From: a virus
IMG/VR virus record: IMGVR_UViG_3300042402_001675
Span: 1-24,576 of that record
Direction: 5' to 3' (one strand)
DNA length: 24,576 bases
The translations under genes and the position numbers were made by a program. Positions 2,585-16,106 of the stretch are shown here, piece by piece. How positions within the stretch are numbered: position 1 is the first letter of the stretch; each line of letters begins with the position of its first letter. The notes under the pieces were generated by a model, which saw nothing but the letters and a program-made list of their open reading frames with translations, had not been told where the DNA came from and ran no database searches.

Positions 2585-3898
2585 CTAAATCTGCTGAGCA
2601 CCGGGGACCAGGATGGACACCGTCACCGCCACGTTGGAGTAGAACGCCCGTGGGTTGGACGTGAAGGTGCGCGGCCCCGTTGGGTTGGGCGGGTTGGTCA
2701 GGTAGGCGACGTTCATCGACGCCGACAGGCCGTTGCGGTCGACGCTGGTGGTCATGCCCGCCGGGGAGTTCTGGGTGCCCGGCTCCGGCCCGATCAGGTT
2801 GTCGGTCGGGTTGTCGGTGCGCCCGTAGAACGACGCGCAGATCAGCATCTGCCCGCTGATGGCGATGGACGGGGCGACGTGGTTCTGGGTGCCGGTCTGG
2901 GTCCACTTCTTGCGGGTGGACGCCGCCGCCCAGCCCGTGGTGTCGATGTCCCCGCCCGGCGAGGCGGCGTCGCGCAGCACCATCAGGTGCGCGATCTCCT
3001 CGGCCAGGAAGATGTTGCCGAAGGTGTAGCTGGCGGGCTCGGCGGGACCGGCGCGCTTGACGAACACCTTGACGTGGACGGAGAACAGCCCGTCGTCCAC
3101 GACGTGCAGCTCAGTCCACAGCGGGTCGGGCCGGGTGATGTCGGAGGCGCTGCCGAACTGATTGCCCACCACCGCCACCAGGATGTCGCCGTCGCGCGTC
3201 CCGGCGGGCACCGGCACGGTGACGTTGTTGGTGATCTGCAACCCGGTGGCGCTGCCCACCACCGTCGGCACCTTGCGCGGCAGCGCCGGGGCGATCTGCG
3301 GCACCGCGAACAGGTCCAGGCCCAGCTCCCCGGCCAGCACCGCCGACTCGGTGTTCGACTTGCCGCCGGTGATCTGGGTGTCCTCCCAGAACTCGCTGAT
3401 GAACCGCACCTCCACGGTGGCGGTGGCCTTCTCGCCGGGCTGCACGGCCTTCCAGCCGGTGAGCTGTGGCATCAGCGGGACGGTGGTGGAGTGCGCCCGC
3501 ACGGAGTGGATGCCGTAGTCGGTGCCGGTGCCCAGCAGCCCGCCCATGCCCAGGTCGGCACCGCCGCCGAACCTCGACACCTCGGTCAGCGCGGGAGCTT
3601 TGGGCGCGGGGCCGACATCAAACCCGTGGTTGGTCTGGAGGTAGCCCCGGCTGCGGGCCTGGAGCGACACCGCGCTGCCGCCCTGGTGGACCATGCCGTA
3701 CACCCACTGCGGCAGCGGGGTGTTGTTGACCCAGTCCACGGTGACGGTCTGGTAGACCTCGTTCTTGGCCTTGCCGCCGGAGGGGTCGTAGGTCTTGGCG
3801 ACCGATGCGGTGGAGGTGGTCGCCACCCGGCGCAACTGCATCCACGGCTGCGGGGAGATGACACCGTCGACCGTGGCGAAGTGATCGGGGTGCGTCAT
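2585..3898 (-). CDS. Minor tail / fibre protein, two-domain
   Basis: A 437-aa protein with its start at the ATG at 3898, which overlaps the upstream stop as ATGA. In-frame starts at 3922 and 3910 are possible but lie inside the upstream gene. The N-terminal half (to about residue 200) appears related to the two genes encoded just upstream: PWMQLRRV early, a VDWVNNTPLPQWVY strand, LQARSRGYL, then a PGEKATATVEVRFISEFWED stretch and DLFAVP. The C-terminal half (about 210-437) is a different β-rich domain beginning AGTRDGDILVAVVGNQFG and including HLMVLRDA and GQMLICASFYGR, of a kind seen in phage fibre and adhesin-like proteins. It is probably at the tail tip or side fibre. The specific receptor cannot be told. 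Confidence 0.78.
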   Translation of the reverse strand: MTHPDHFATVDGVISPQPWMQLRRVATTSTASVAKTYDPSGGKAKNEVYQTVTVDWVNNTPLPQWVYGMVHQGGSAVSLQARSRGYLQTNHGFDVGPAPKAPALTEVSRFGGGADLGMGGLLGTGTDYGIHSVRAHSTTVPLMPQLTGWKAVQPGEKATATVEVRFISEFWEDTQITGGKSNTESAVLAGELGLDLFAVPQIAPALPRKVPTVVGSATGLQITNNVTVPVPAGTRDGDILVAVVGNQFGSASDITRPDPLWTELHVVDDGLFSVHVKVFVKRAGPAEPASYTFGNIFLAEEIAHLMVLRDAASPGGDIDTTGWAAASTRKKWTQTGTQNHVAPSIAISGQMLICASFYGRTDNPTDNLIGPEPGTQNSPAGMTTSVDRNGLSASMNVAYLTNPPNPTGPRTFTSNPRAFYSNVAVTVSILVPGAQQI

Positions 3899-13793: not shown

Positions 13794-13829
13794 CGGCTCA
13801 GATTAGCCCAACGAAGTGCGGGGTCAGGG
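13772..13829 (-). other. Candidate +1 frameshift site at the end of the chaperone gene
   Basis: The chaperone ends CTG CCC TGA (stop at 13826-13824). CCC-TGA is a known type of +1 slip site: the proline tRNA could move from CCC to CCT and continue GAC CCC GCA. The shifted frame reads DPALRWANLSRWWTPVR and ends at TAA 13774-13772, inside the tape measure start. The extension is only about 17 residues, much shorter than a normal GT domain, and the reading rests only on sequence. Confidence 0.3.
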
Positions 13830-14147
13830 CAGGTCGACCACGCCGCGCATCAGTTCCCCGATGGTCTCGATGGTGTAGTCGGGGTCGTCGGGGTCCATCA
13901 GCCGGGAGAACACCTGCTCGTAGGACTCCGGCGACAGGTGGCGACTGATGAACAGGCCGGTCATATCGTTGCGCATCGTCGTGCTGACGTACTTGGACGT
14001 TGCCAGGGTGAACGCCGCCAGCGCCTGCTGGGTCGGCTTGCGGGCGTGCAGGGTGTCGCCCTTGAACTCCAGCTCCTGAAACTTGGTCTCGTCGGTGTCG
14101 GCGTCGATGACCTTGGGAGCTGCCTTGTCGGCCTTGCTGGCTGTCAT
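13824..14147 (-). CDS. Tail assembly chaperone (gpG-like)
   Basis: A 107-aa protein directly before the tape measure, the standard place of the lambda gpG-like chaperone that coats the tape measure during tail assembly. It has a short charged N-terminus (TASKADKAAPKVIDADTD), ELEFKGDTLHARKPTQQALA, then a helical body FTLATSKYVSTTMRND and FISRHLSPESYEQVFSRLMD, and ends TIGELMRGVVDLP. The ATG at 14147 lacks a good ribosome-binding site; an AAAGG lies too far upstream. Most such genes are followed by a long overlapping ORF expressed by frameshift, but here only 30 bases separate the stop from the tape measure start, so the usual GT fusion cannot be encoded. Confidence 0.8.
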   Translation of the reverse strand: MTASKADKAAPKVIDADTDETKFQELEFKGDTLHARKPTQQALAAFTLATSKYVSTTMRNDMTGLFISRHLSPESYEQVFSRLMDPDDPDYTIETIGELMRGVVDLP

Positions 14148-14171: not shown

Positions 14172-14576
14172 TCAGTTCAGATCGCGCAGCACGCGCGCGA
14201 CGGCGTTGGTGAGGAACGGCCGGGGCCGGGTGCCGGGGTGGTTGACCGACATGGCGAACACCGTGCGGCTGCCGACGGGGAAGCGCAGCGCGGCGGCGTT
14301 GCGCGGCCGGATGACGTGCGGCCGGGTGCCCTGGTGGACGAACCGGGAGTACGGCGCGTGGGAGGTGACCCCGCCGATGACGCGGAACGGTCCCAGCGCC
14401 AGGATCGGGTCCTCCTTGATGGCCTGGGCCATGCGGCCGGTATCGACCGGGGCGTTGGTGCGGGCGTCGGCGGCGACCAGCCGGATGATCTGGCGCATTC
14501 TGGTCTGGAGGATCGCACCGACCTCGCTGCCCATACCGCTGCCGTTGGGCTCAAAGTCCCCGGTCACTTTCGCCAT
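14172..14576 (-). CDS. HK97 gp10-like tail completion / head-tail connector protein
   Basis: A 134-aa protein resembling the HK97 gp10-like family, which acts in the neck or tail completion. Recognisable parts are RMRQIIRLVAADARTNAPVD followed by TGRMAQAIKED, a HAPYSRFVHQGTRPHVIRP stretch near residues 80-95, LRFPVGSRTVF, NHPGTRPRPFL and a C-terminal helix NAVARVLRDLN. The spacing between TGR and the HQGTxPH motif is normal for the family. The ATG is at 14576 with a weak AGGG about eight bases upstream. It is cut off from the other connector genes by the plus-strand cassette starting at 14648, whose promoter lies in the 71-base gap. Confidence 0.85.
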   Translation of the reverse strand: MAKVTGDFEPNGSGMGSEVGAILQTRMRQIIRLVAADARTNAPVDTGRMAQAIKEDPILALGPFRVIGGVTSHAPYSRFVHQGTRPHVIRPRNAAALRFPVGSRTVFAMSVNHPGTRPRPFLTNAVARVLRDLN

Positions 14577-14613: not shown

Positions 14614-14641
14614 TTGACAATACCTCCGTCTACGGTATTCT
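14614..14641 (+). promoter_or_regulatory. Promoter with operator-like inverted repeat, plus-strand cassette
   Basis: TTGACA (14614-14619) is followed by a 16-base spacer and TATTCT (14636-14641), which fits the mycobacterial TANNNT -10 element. Transcription should start about 7 bases on, at or next to the ATG at 14648. No Shine-Dalgarno precedes that ATG, so the mRNA is probably leaderless. AATACC (14619-14624) and GGTATT (14634-14639) form an inverted repeat across the spacer that would suit a repressor. Confidence 0.7.
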
Positions 14642-14647
14642 AGACGT

Positions 14648-14881
14648 ATGACCAAGACCGAAGCCGCCGAAACCATCGCCCTCCGCGTTGTCGTCAACGC
14701 CCGCAAGACCGGCCAGGTCATCACCAAGACCGCCGTCGAGGAGACCATGAGCGAGCTGGGCGGCGGGCACCACGGCGCGTTCCTCGCCGAAGCCGCTAAG
14801 AACACCAACTGGCGCACCGCGCTCCGCATCGCCACCGCCCTAGCAAAGGGCACCGGCGACTACCACCTCATCGCCCGATGA
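14648..14881 (+). CDS. Small hypothetical protein, first gene of plus-strand cassette
   Basis: A 77-aa mostly helical, basic protein (MTKTEAAETIALRVVVNARK, then KTAVEETMSELGGGHHGAFLAEAAKN and WRTALRIATALAKGTGDYHL). I do not recognise the family. It sits directly behind a strong promoter with no ribosome-binding site, so leaderless translation is expected. Its TGA overlaps an in-frame ATG of the next gene (ATGA at 14878). The opposing orientation and dedicated promoter suggest a moron, a cargo gene expressed apart from virion assembly, perhaps in lysogeny. A DNA- or RNA-binding role is possible from size and charge but unproven. Confidence 0.7.
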   Translation: MTKTEAAETIALRVVVNARKTGQVITKTAVEETMSELGGGHHGAFLAEAAKNTNWRTALRIATALAKGTGDYHLIAR

Positions 14882-14898
14882 CCCAAAAGGAAACGACT

Positions 14899-15153
14899 AT
14901 GACCACCCTCACCGCCGCCGCGTCTCGCATCCTCAACGAGCTGGCTTGCGTTGACGGCAACGCGACCTTCACCCCGCAGAGCAACAACCTTCCACCGCGC
15001 ACCCGTGTCTACGGCTCGCGTCAGGTCAGAACCATCCGTGCCTTGGAGGATGCAGGTCTGGTGACCGTCACCGAGAACCAGTGCTGGGACGGCAGCCGCT
15101 CAGTTCATCGTCGGGGCTTCAAGACCTACACCGTCAGCCTCGTCACCGCGTAA
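14899..15153 (+). CDS. Small protein with winged-helix-like pattern
   Basis: An 84-aa protein from the ATG at 14899, chosen because AAGGA lies seven bases upstream. An in-frame ATG at 14878, overlapping the previous stop, would add seven residues. The sequence AAASRILNELACVDGNATF, then SRQVRTIRALEDAGLVTVTE and a final strand KTYTVSLVTA is reminiscent of a small winged helix: a helix, a recognition-like helix (VRTIRALEDAGLV) and a β-wing. A role as a DNA-binding regulator of the cassette is therefore possible but not shown. Second gene of the cassette, 22 bases before the next ATG. Confidence 0.65.
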   Translation: MTTLTAAASRILNELACVDGNATFTPQSNNLPPRTRVYGSRQVRTIRALEDAGLVTVTENQCWDGSRSVHRRGFKTYTVSLVTA

Positions 15154-15175
15154 CTACAGCCGAAAGGACCACACC

Positions 15176-15352
15176 ATGCGCCGTTTCCGCGCCCCCGGCT
15201 CCCGCATCGAGCACTTCACCGCTGACGACACCGTAACCCTGTGCGGCATCGGTGCCCGCGCCGGTGCCCGCTACGGCGGCCCCGGCGACCCCGCCGGTAT
15301 GGACATCAAGCCCCGCCCGATCTGCGGCAAGTGCCGCGACGCCCGGCCATGA
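15176..15352 (+). CDS. Small putative zinc-binding protein (58 aa)
   Basis: Starts at ATG 15176 with AAAGGA seven bases upstream, and its TGA overlaps the next start (ATGA). Residues H13, C23, C50 and C53 (EHFTADDTVTLCG, then PICGKC) form a plausible four-ligand zinc site. Similar short His-Cys/CxxC proteins are widespread in actinobacteria and their phages without a known function. The good ribosome-binding site and four-base overlap with the next gene support its reality despite its small size. Confidence 0.65.
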   Translation: MRRFRAPGSRIEHFTADDTVTLCGIGARAGARYGGPGDPAGMDIKPRPICGKCRDARP

Positions 15353-15465
15353 CCGCCACCTGCGCCGAGTGCGGGCAGCCCGCCGAACACGTCTACTGGG
15401 GCGGCATCTGCTCCGCGTGCTACGCCGTGTGGGCTACGGAAGAACCTCACGCGCCGTCACAGTGA
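15349..15465 (+). CDS. Mini zinc-ribbon protein (38 aa)
   Basis: A 38-aa protein starting MTATCAECGQPAEHVYWGG and containing C5-x2-C8 and C21-x2-C24, a classic two-knuckle zinc ribbon. It is translationally coupled to the preceding gene through ATGA. The last 32 bases overlap the 3' end of the minus-strand gene at 15434. No terminator was recognised after it. Function is unknown; zinc ribbons of this size usually bind nucleic acid or protein partners. Confidence 0.6.
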   Translation: MTATCAECGQPAEHVYWGGICSACYAVWATEEPHAPSQ

Positions 15466-15598
15466 CGTATCCCCGGTCGATGAGTCGTTGCACCGTCGGC
15501 GTCAGCCTGACCGTGCGCTGCACCCCACGGGCCAGCACCACGCTGGGCGTTGCGCTGCCCTGAATGGTCACCACGACCACCGGATCAGAACTCGACAT
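15434..15598 (-). CDS. Small head-tail region protein (54 aa)
   Basis: Starts at ATG 15598, inside the end of the upstream gene (14-base overlap). The protein reads MSSSDPVVVVTIQGSATPSV, then RGVQRTVRLTPTVQRLIDRG and YVTVTA. Short proteins with the R-T-V-R-x-TPTVxxLIxxGYV pattern are common next to connector genes of actinophages. I know no assigned function. A longer open frame upstream in the same phase (to 15640) is rejected in favour of the overlapping start. Confidence 0.65.
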   Translation of the reverse strand: MSSSDPVVVVTIQGSATPSVVLARGVQRTVRLTPTVQRLIDRGYVTVTAREVLP

Positions 15599-16106
15599 AG
15601 ATGGTCCCCGTCCAGGCCACCACGCCGCCCTCCGGCCCATAGGGCGCGATGGCGTCAGTGGCGCAGTTGTATCCCAGCTTGCGGTTCAGCGCGGCGGCGT
15701 AGCACAGCGCCTGCTCGATGCGCCAGGAGTCGTCCAGGCTGATCTCGGCCTCGGCGGCGTACTCCTGCCACGTTGGGTCGGCCTCCACCGTGGCGCACCG
15801 GCCGACGCCCATCTCCAGGGCGATGGCCCGGCTCAGCCCGCAGGCGGTGGTGTCGATCATCGGCGTGGGCAGAGCGTTGGTCCGGTAGCGGCGCAGCACC
15901 CGCACCCACAGGAACGGTAAGTCGCAGCCCTCGCCGGTGGTGTGGGCGTTCCACGCCGCCATCGGAATGCCGTCGCCGCCGAAGAACCGCACCACCGCGC
16001 TCTTGGTCTCGCCGATGGGCGGGCACGGGCTGGCCGGGTCGAACGCGGCCCGCAGCGCCTCCATGACGGCGCTGACGATCTCGCTTGCCGGGTCGGTGCA
16101 GTCCAT
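15585..16106 (-). CDS. Head-tail connector / tail completion protein
   Basis: A 173-aa protein. Its ATG at 16106 shares one base with the upstream stop (TGATG), and the frame upstream of this start overlaps the connector gene, so it is not used. It begins MDCTDPASEIVSAVMEALRA and includes WNAHTTGEGCDLPFLWVRVL, RTNALPTPMIDTTACGLSRA and AEISLDDSWRIEQALCYAAA. The position after the adaptor-like gene and before the gp10-like gene fits a stopper or tail terminator. The exact slot is not decidable from sequence alone. Confidence 0.7.
   Translation of the reverse strand: MDCTDPASEIVSAVMEALRAAFDPASPCPPIGETKSAVVRFFGGDGIPMAAWNAHTTGEGCDLPFLWVRVLRRYRTNALPTPMIDTTACGLSRAIALEMGVGRCATVEADPTWQEYAAEAEISLDDSWRIEQALCYAAALNRKLGYNCATDAIAPYGPEGGVVAWTGTIYVEF

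Follow-up and report, generated by a model that had tools for sequence, protein, structure and literature searches.

A four-gene cassette with its own predicted leaderless promoter at a cargo site between gp21 and gp22 of a soil phage, probably of moron type

We found that a four-gene plus-strand cassette (14648-15465), which lies inside the minus-strand structural operon of a soil phage, is very probably a moron-type accessory cassette, that is, one discrete block of DNA in a permissive slot that would be read by host RNA polymerase from its own leaderless promoter and would encode small regulatory or host-modulating factors. The stretch of DNA analysed, here called the window, is a virus record of 24,576 bp whose structural proteins correspond in both sequence and order to those of phages of mycobacteriophage cluster B (Bclasvirinae) and of Gordonia Sourvirus. 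The head and tail genes of the window are encoded on the minus strand, and the cassette is opposed to them at a site between gp21 and gp22, just past the head-to-tail adaptor and gp20 (Table 1). A preliminary description of this DNA had reported the cassette as splitting the connector genes from a gp10-like gene, and indeed all four ORFs are present between phrog_901/gp21 and the HK97-gp10-like/tail-completion gene. Since a second, longer IMG/VR metagenome contig holds the same cassette with only 3 differences in 11,435 bp (99.97% identity), the arrangement cannot be put down to misassembly of a single contig. A second plus-strand gene of the window, which encodes a 256-aa HNH endonuclease (1272-2042, +; PF01844, 1.3e-7; phrog_1035/8660), lies within the minus-strand tail region and is preceded by a Shine-Dalgarno-like AGGAG, not a leaderless start.

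Table 1. Positions in the window of the cassette genes, their predicted promoter, the exchanged segment and the neighbouring structural genes.
Feature	Position	Strand	Basis
Tail assembly chaperone	13824..14147	-	PF23781 1.9e-36
gp22, HK97-gp10-like / tail completion or Neck1 protein	14172..14576	-	Profile matches
Exchanged segment	14591..15461		Alignment to L013: flanks match, inside unrelated
Sigma-70/SigA-type promoter TTGACA-16-TATTCT, 10/12 matches	14614..14641	+	Predicted from sequence
Gene 1, 77 aa, predicted all-helical, family MTKTEAAE...	14648..14881	+	Relatives, dN/dS 0.27-0.5
Gene 2, 91 aa, possible winged-helix DNA-binding protein	14878..15153	+	Poor model, weak similarity
Gene 3, 58 aa, small His/Cys protein, phrog_5130	15176..15352	+	E=3.7e-11
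Gene 4, 38 aa, CxxC-x12-CxxC zinc-ribbon/treble-clef-like mini protein	15349..15465	+	Sub-threshold zinc-finger matches only
gp21 (phrog_901), 53 aa	15434..15595	-	Profile match
gp20 (phrog_810), anchor of slot survey	15585..16106	-	Profile match

The exchanged segment was delimited by alignment to the closest relative, locus L013, whose gp20 is 97% identical to that of the window. Up to ~14590 and again from ~15462, the two loci mostly share ~90-100% identity in each 60 bases, and between these flanks the 871 bp of the window that carry the cassette and the 395 bp of L013 are unrelated. The L013 segment encodes a 105-aa HNH endonuclease on the plus strand (PF01844 above the curated cut-off), and a -10 element at 8 nt from its ATG gives this gene a leaderless-type promoter. 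In L014, the same slot contains an HNH gene 79% identical to that of L013, and within IMG/VR the slot HNH gene was found at these two loci only. The slot was then surveyed with gp20 relatives from IMG/VR and one Rhodococcus genome, giving 65 usable loci. Large gp21-gp22 gaps (857, 380 and 346 bp) were seen only in this phage, L013 and L014, respectively, whereas almost all of the remaining ~60 loci in which both genes were found have them side by side; gp21 also adjoins gp22 in Mariokart and Serendipitous. Apparent gaps of ~80-140 bp at a few divergent loci probably stem from partial profile matches to gp22. By the insertion test for a moron, the cassette is thus a block of DNA between genes that are contiguous in related phages, and the survey led us to reject a vertical ancestral operon in this clade. 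Since one site can hold the cassette, the HNH gene or nothing, it is best described as a permissive slot with exchanged cargo, and the cassette as moron-type. Judged from the surveyed loci, the slot exists in one small clade, where it has accommodated at least two unrelated cargoes, each predicted to be separately promoted. Parsimony suggests that the HNH gene came first and was displaced in this lineage by the four-gene cassette; the HNH gene would then be the earlier resident and may have driven the exchange. The sole gp20 relative found among genome contigs lies in a 227-kb contig of Rhodococcus sp. SMB37 (NZ_SLVY01000009.1), a location that suggests a related phage in a prophage or plasmid-like state.

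The right edge of the insert touches gp21. The last 32 bp of gene 4 overlap the 3' end of gp21, and gp21 is 53 aa long here and 54 aa long in L013, compared with 62-118 aa in most relatives with an empty slot. These lengths indicate that the cargo clips the variable C-terminal tail of gp21 at the insert edge. An insertion that breaks gp21 was rejected, since the short gp21 is also present in L013 and the loss is limited to the variable tail. The sequence CAGTGACGTAT, common to the L013 promoter and the right edge in the window, was considered as a recombination site and set aside, as it is partly ordinary gp21 coding homology. Strong dyads are present in the HNH promoters of L013 (CAGTGACG-N16-CGTCACTG) and L014 (GTGACGTA-N13-TACGTCAC), with shuffle p values of 0.007 or less, and the L013 promoter also has an 11-bp direct repeat, CCGTTTCGTCA. 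The dyads may represent an operator or, because the empty site of L015 contains TTTCGTCAGATGACG, a trace of the HNH target.

The single strong promoter that had been proposed in front of the cassette was confirmed as a prediction: TTGACA-16-TATTCT is the only plus-strand promoter match in the 24.6 kb. Since its -10 element stops 6 nt short of the gene 1 ATG, transcription is predicted to begin on or beside the start codon and to yield a leaderless mRNA. This geometry, combined with 10/12 promoter matches, occurs at only one of the 1527 ATG/GTG codons on both strands of the window, that of gene 1, and the cassette is predicted from these letters to own a promoter independent of the surrounding operon. 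ATGA overlaps link genes 1 and 2 (at the distal gene 2 start) and genes 3 and 4. A better start for gene 2 is at 14899 (84 aa), behind AAAAGGA, and the ribosome-binding site of gene 3 is GAAAGGA. The earlier picture of genes packed with ATGA overlaps or good ribosome-binding sites is therefore accurate for genes 2-4 and needs amending for gene 1, where the promoter geometry predicts a leaderless start. Morons typically carry their own transcription terminator. No intrinsic terminator was detected after gene 4 in a simple scan, which misses terminators lacking a T run, and the hairpin after gene 4 folds no better than shuffled sequences.

Gene 1 is the sole cassette gene with relatives in named phages, namely Kashi_VT1, Megsy, Kratio (cluster K) and Hawkeye (cluster D), and it also has relatives in three more IMG/VR contigs. 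These proteins are 37-60% identical and share the invariant start MTK[TS]EAA. With dN/dS of about 0.5 in the comparisons with Kashi_VT1 and Megsy and of 0.27 in that with Hawkeye, purifying selection, a point raised for all four genes in the preliminary description, was found for gene 1 only. A leaderless-type promoter precedes gene 1 in the cassette, L009 and L011. The homologues of Kashi_VT1 and Megsy have a perfect and rightly placed TTGACA with a poor -10 element, the Hawkeye promoter is weak, and the homologues of Kratio and L010 resemble internal operon genes. The neighbours of gene 1 also vary, being small winged-helix-turn-helix (wHTH)-like genes in Megsy (gene 79, annotated as HTH), Kratio (gene 65) and L011, and small Cys-rich genes in L009 and Hawkeye (gene 47). 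At the Kashi_VT1 locus (2950-3000), an 8-bp direct repeat, ATGCATAC (p about 0.02), lies over the end of the -35 element and immediately in front of the gene 1 homologue's start codon, and suggests a regulator site. A pattern search of genome contigs gave no match to gene 1 in host genomes, and a profile search of 401 genomes from the family of Rhodococcus sp. SMB37, run with no positive control, gave none to gene 1 or phrog_5130.

The other three genes resemble nucleic-acid-binding types. For gene 2, the single-sequence model was poor and showed a helix-strand-helix-hairpin, the sequence pattern was recognition-helix-and-wing-like, and weak similarity was seen to the wHTH-like neighbours of gene 1 (P=0.014); gene 2 is possibly a winged-helix protein, with no match to Pfam or NCBIfam HTH models. 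The two AlphaFold models of cassette proteins were poor (pLDDT 48.5 and 53.9). Gene 2 also gave weak matches in the 401 genomes of the Rhodococcus SMB37 family, with per-genome E values of 0.0016-0.006 and internal stops in several; these were discarded as chance level. Gene 3 has Cys 23, 50 and 53 together with His13, gene 4 has two CxxC pairs, and zinc binding by both is plausible from these residues. Gene 4 gave no significant family match, the near-identical contig was the only source of relatives of genes 2 and 3, and PDB sequence searches with genes 1, 2 and 4 returned chance matches only. When the four genes were searched against PADLOC, Pfam and NCBIfam, nothing was above curated cut-offs or beyond noise and none of the proteins matched a family of defence proteins, toxins or regulators, the best PADLOC hit (E=0.017) being a stray match; nor did family profile searches identify an HNH or other nuclease among them.

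Since the quartet was seen only in the near-identical contig, a fixed co-operating system, as proposed in the preliminary description, is not borne out by the co-occurrence of its genes elsewhere. The self-contained part of that proposal agrees with a separately promoted insert and a discrete exchange of DNA, whereas co-operation draws no support from the recurrence of gene 1 alone beside changing neighbours. Of the functions suggested, superinfection exclusion and host takeover found no match in PADLOC, Pfam or NCBIfam, and the results agree best with a regulator and its partners. Because the proteins are small and apparently soluble and genes 2-4 resemble nucleic-acid-binding types, we favour as most likely an accessory role in regulation or host modulation, of which counter-defence would be a subtype.

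Counter-defence could take the form of an acr-aca-like operon, in which gene 1 (perhaps with genes 3 and 4) inhibits host defence, the inhibitors being made in a burst from the strong promoter, and the gene 2 product would be an Aca-like repressor acting on the promoter inverted repeat. As in acr-aca operons, a single strong promoter precedes genes for small proteins and a possible HTH partner, here in the structural region; gene 1 repeatedly adjoins wHTH-like genes; and an AATACC-N9-GGTATT inverted repeat spans the core promoter, where Aca operators are usually found (PMC9410906). However, this repeat is not significant (p about 0.21) and was dropped as an operator dyad, gene 2 has no HTH family match, no PADLOC match is above noise, no gene was found beside a known acr, and the cassette has no Aca or Acr homology, so that we consider the acr-aca reading unlikely. 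A broader version is similarly doubtful: the cassette would represent a new type of operon by which actinobacterial phages counter defences or take over the host, with gene 1 as a new effector family accompanied by changing winged-helix repressors in an acr-aca-like manner, and its insertion would remove the target of the HNH endonuclease that sister phages encode. If true, the cassette and the HNH cargo would compete for one site.

An autonomous promoter and a moron position are typical of many exclusion genes, and the cassette has both, as would a superinfection-exclusion or prophage-type defence cassette that guards the infected cell against other phages. Against this, inspection revealed no obvious membrane or secreted protein and no defence family was matched. 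The cluster B relatives are usually considered to be lytic, which makes lysogenic expression of the cassette doubtful, and we regard exclusion as improbable. A toxin-antitoxin or addiction pair of genes 1 and 2, carried as selfish cargo, would agree with two small overlapping genes and a possible DNA-binding partner, but Pfam and NCBIfam gave no toxin or antitoxin family and no relative of gene 2 was detectable in other phages that carry gene 1, leaving this reading very unlikely. Short ORFs are common on both strands of high-GC DNA, yet chance ORFs in non-coding DNA are hardly credible here, given a GC3 of 0.80-0.88 in 4/4 cassette genes with clearly lower GC1 and GC2, as in neighbouring real genes, the conservation of gene 1 under purifying selection, the phrog_5130 match and the promoter; this explanation is already refuted for genes 1 and 3, and the block, being absent from relatives, is not antisense of any structural gene.

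The moron-type cassette was further compared with described phage insertions. Morons, Cluster B1 gene swaps that include regulatory sequence, and HNH-driven mosaicism have been reported (PMC3029335). Like these, the cassette is DNA present in one genome and absent between the same genes in relatives, with its own predicted promoter; it differs in comprising four opposed genes in the head-tail block with no detected terminator, and in that an HNH gene is the alternative occupant. Pumpkin 40 is an example of a free-standing HNH (homing-type) endonuclease insertion in mycobacteriophages (PMC3029335), and the slot of L013 and L014 likewise contains an HNH gene that the other relatives lack, whereas the cassette of the window has no endonuclease. 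Corndog 53 of Cluster O is a reverse-strand DNA-binding gene within a structural operon, with a leaderless SigA promoter, PL2 (PMC4351075). The likeness is that of a reverse-strand gene among structural genes, leaderless in Corndog (PMC4351075) and predicted to be so in the cassette; Corndog belongs to another phage group, no sequence link to the cassette genes was found, and here a slot with alternative cargo is evident from near-identical flanks.

Overall, these results support a scheme in which the cassette was recently acquired as one block between the late structural genes gp21 and gp22. After DNA entry, host RNA polymerase (SigA-type) would read it from its own promoter, and gene 1 would be translated from the leaderless mRNA. 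Since this promoter is opposed to the structural operon, expression would be possible without the phage late program. The four products of the cassette are small and apparently soluble, comprising a helical protein, a probable winged-helix protein and two probable zinc-binding proteins, which would most likely act as nucleic-acid-binding regulatory or host-modulating factors and not as virion parts. This architecture is already known as a type of phage cargo, of which the cassette is a clear example. What appeared to be an isolated oddity becomes a comparative case, in which one conserved head-tail site holds an HNH gene, a four-gene cargo or nothing, and each cargo has its own predicted leaderless promoter. 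Gene 1 represents a recurring mycobacteriophage family that can be tested in M. smegmatis, and slots of this kind would be good places in which to search for accessory phage functions.
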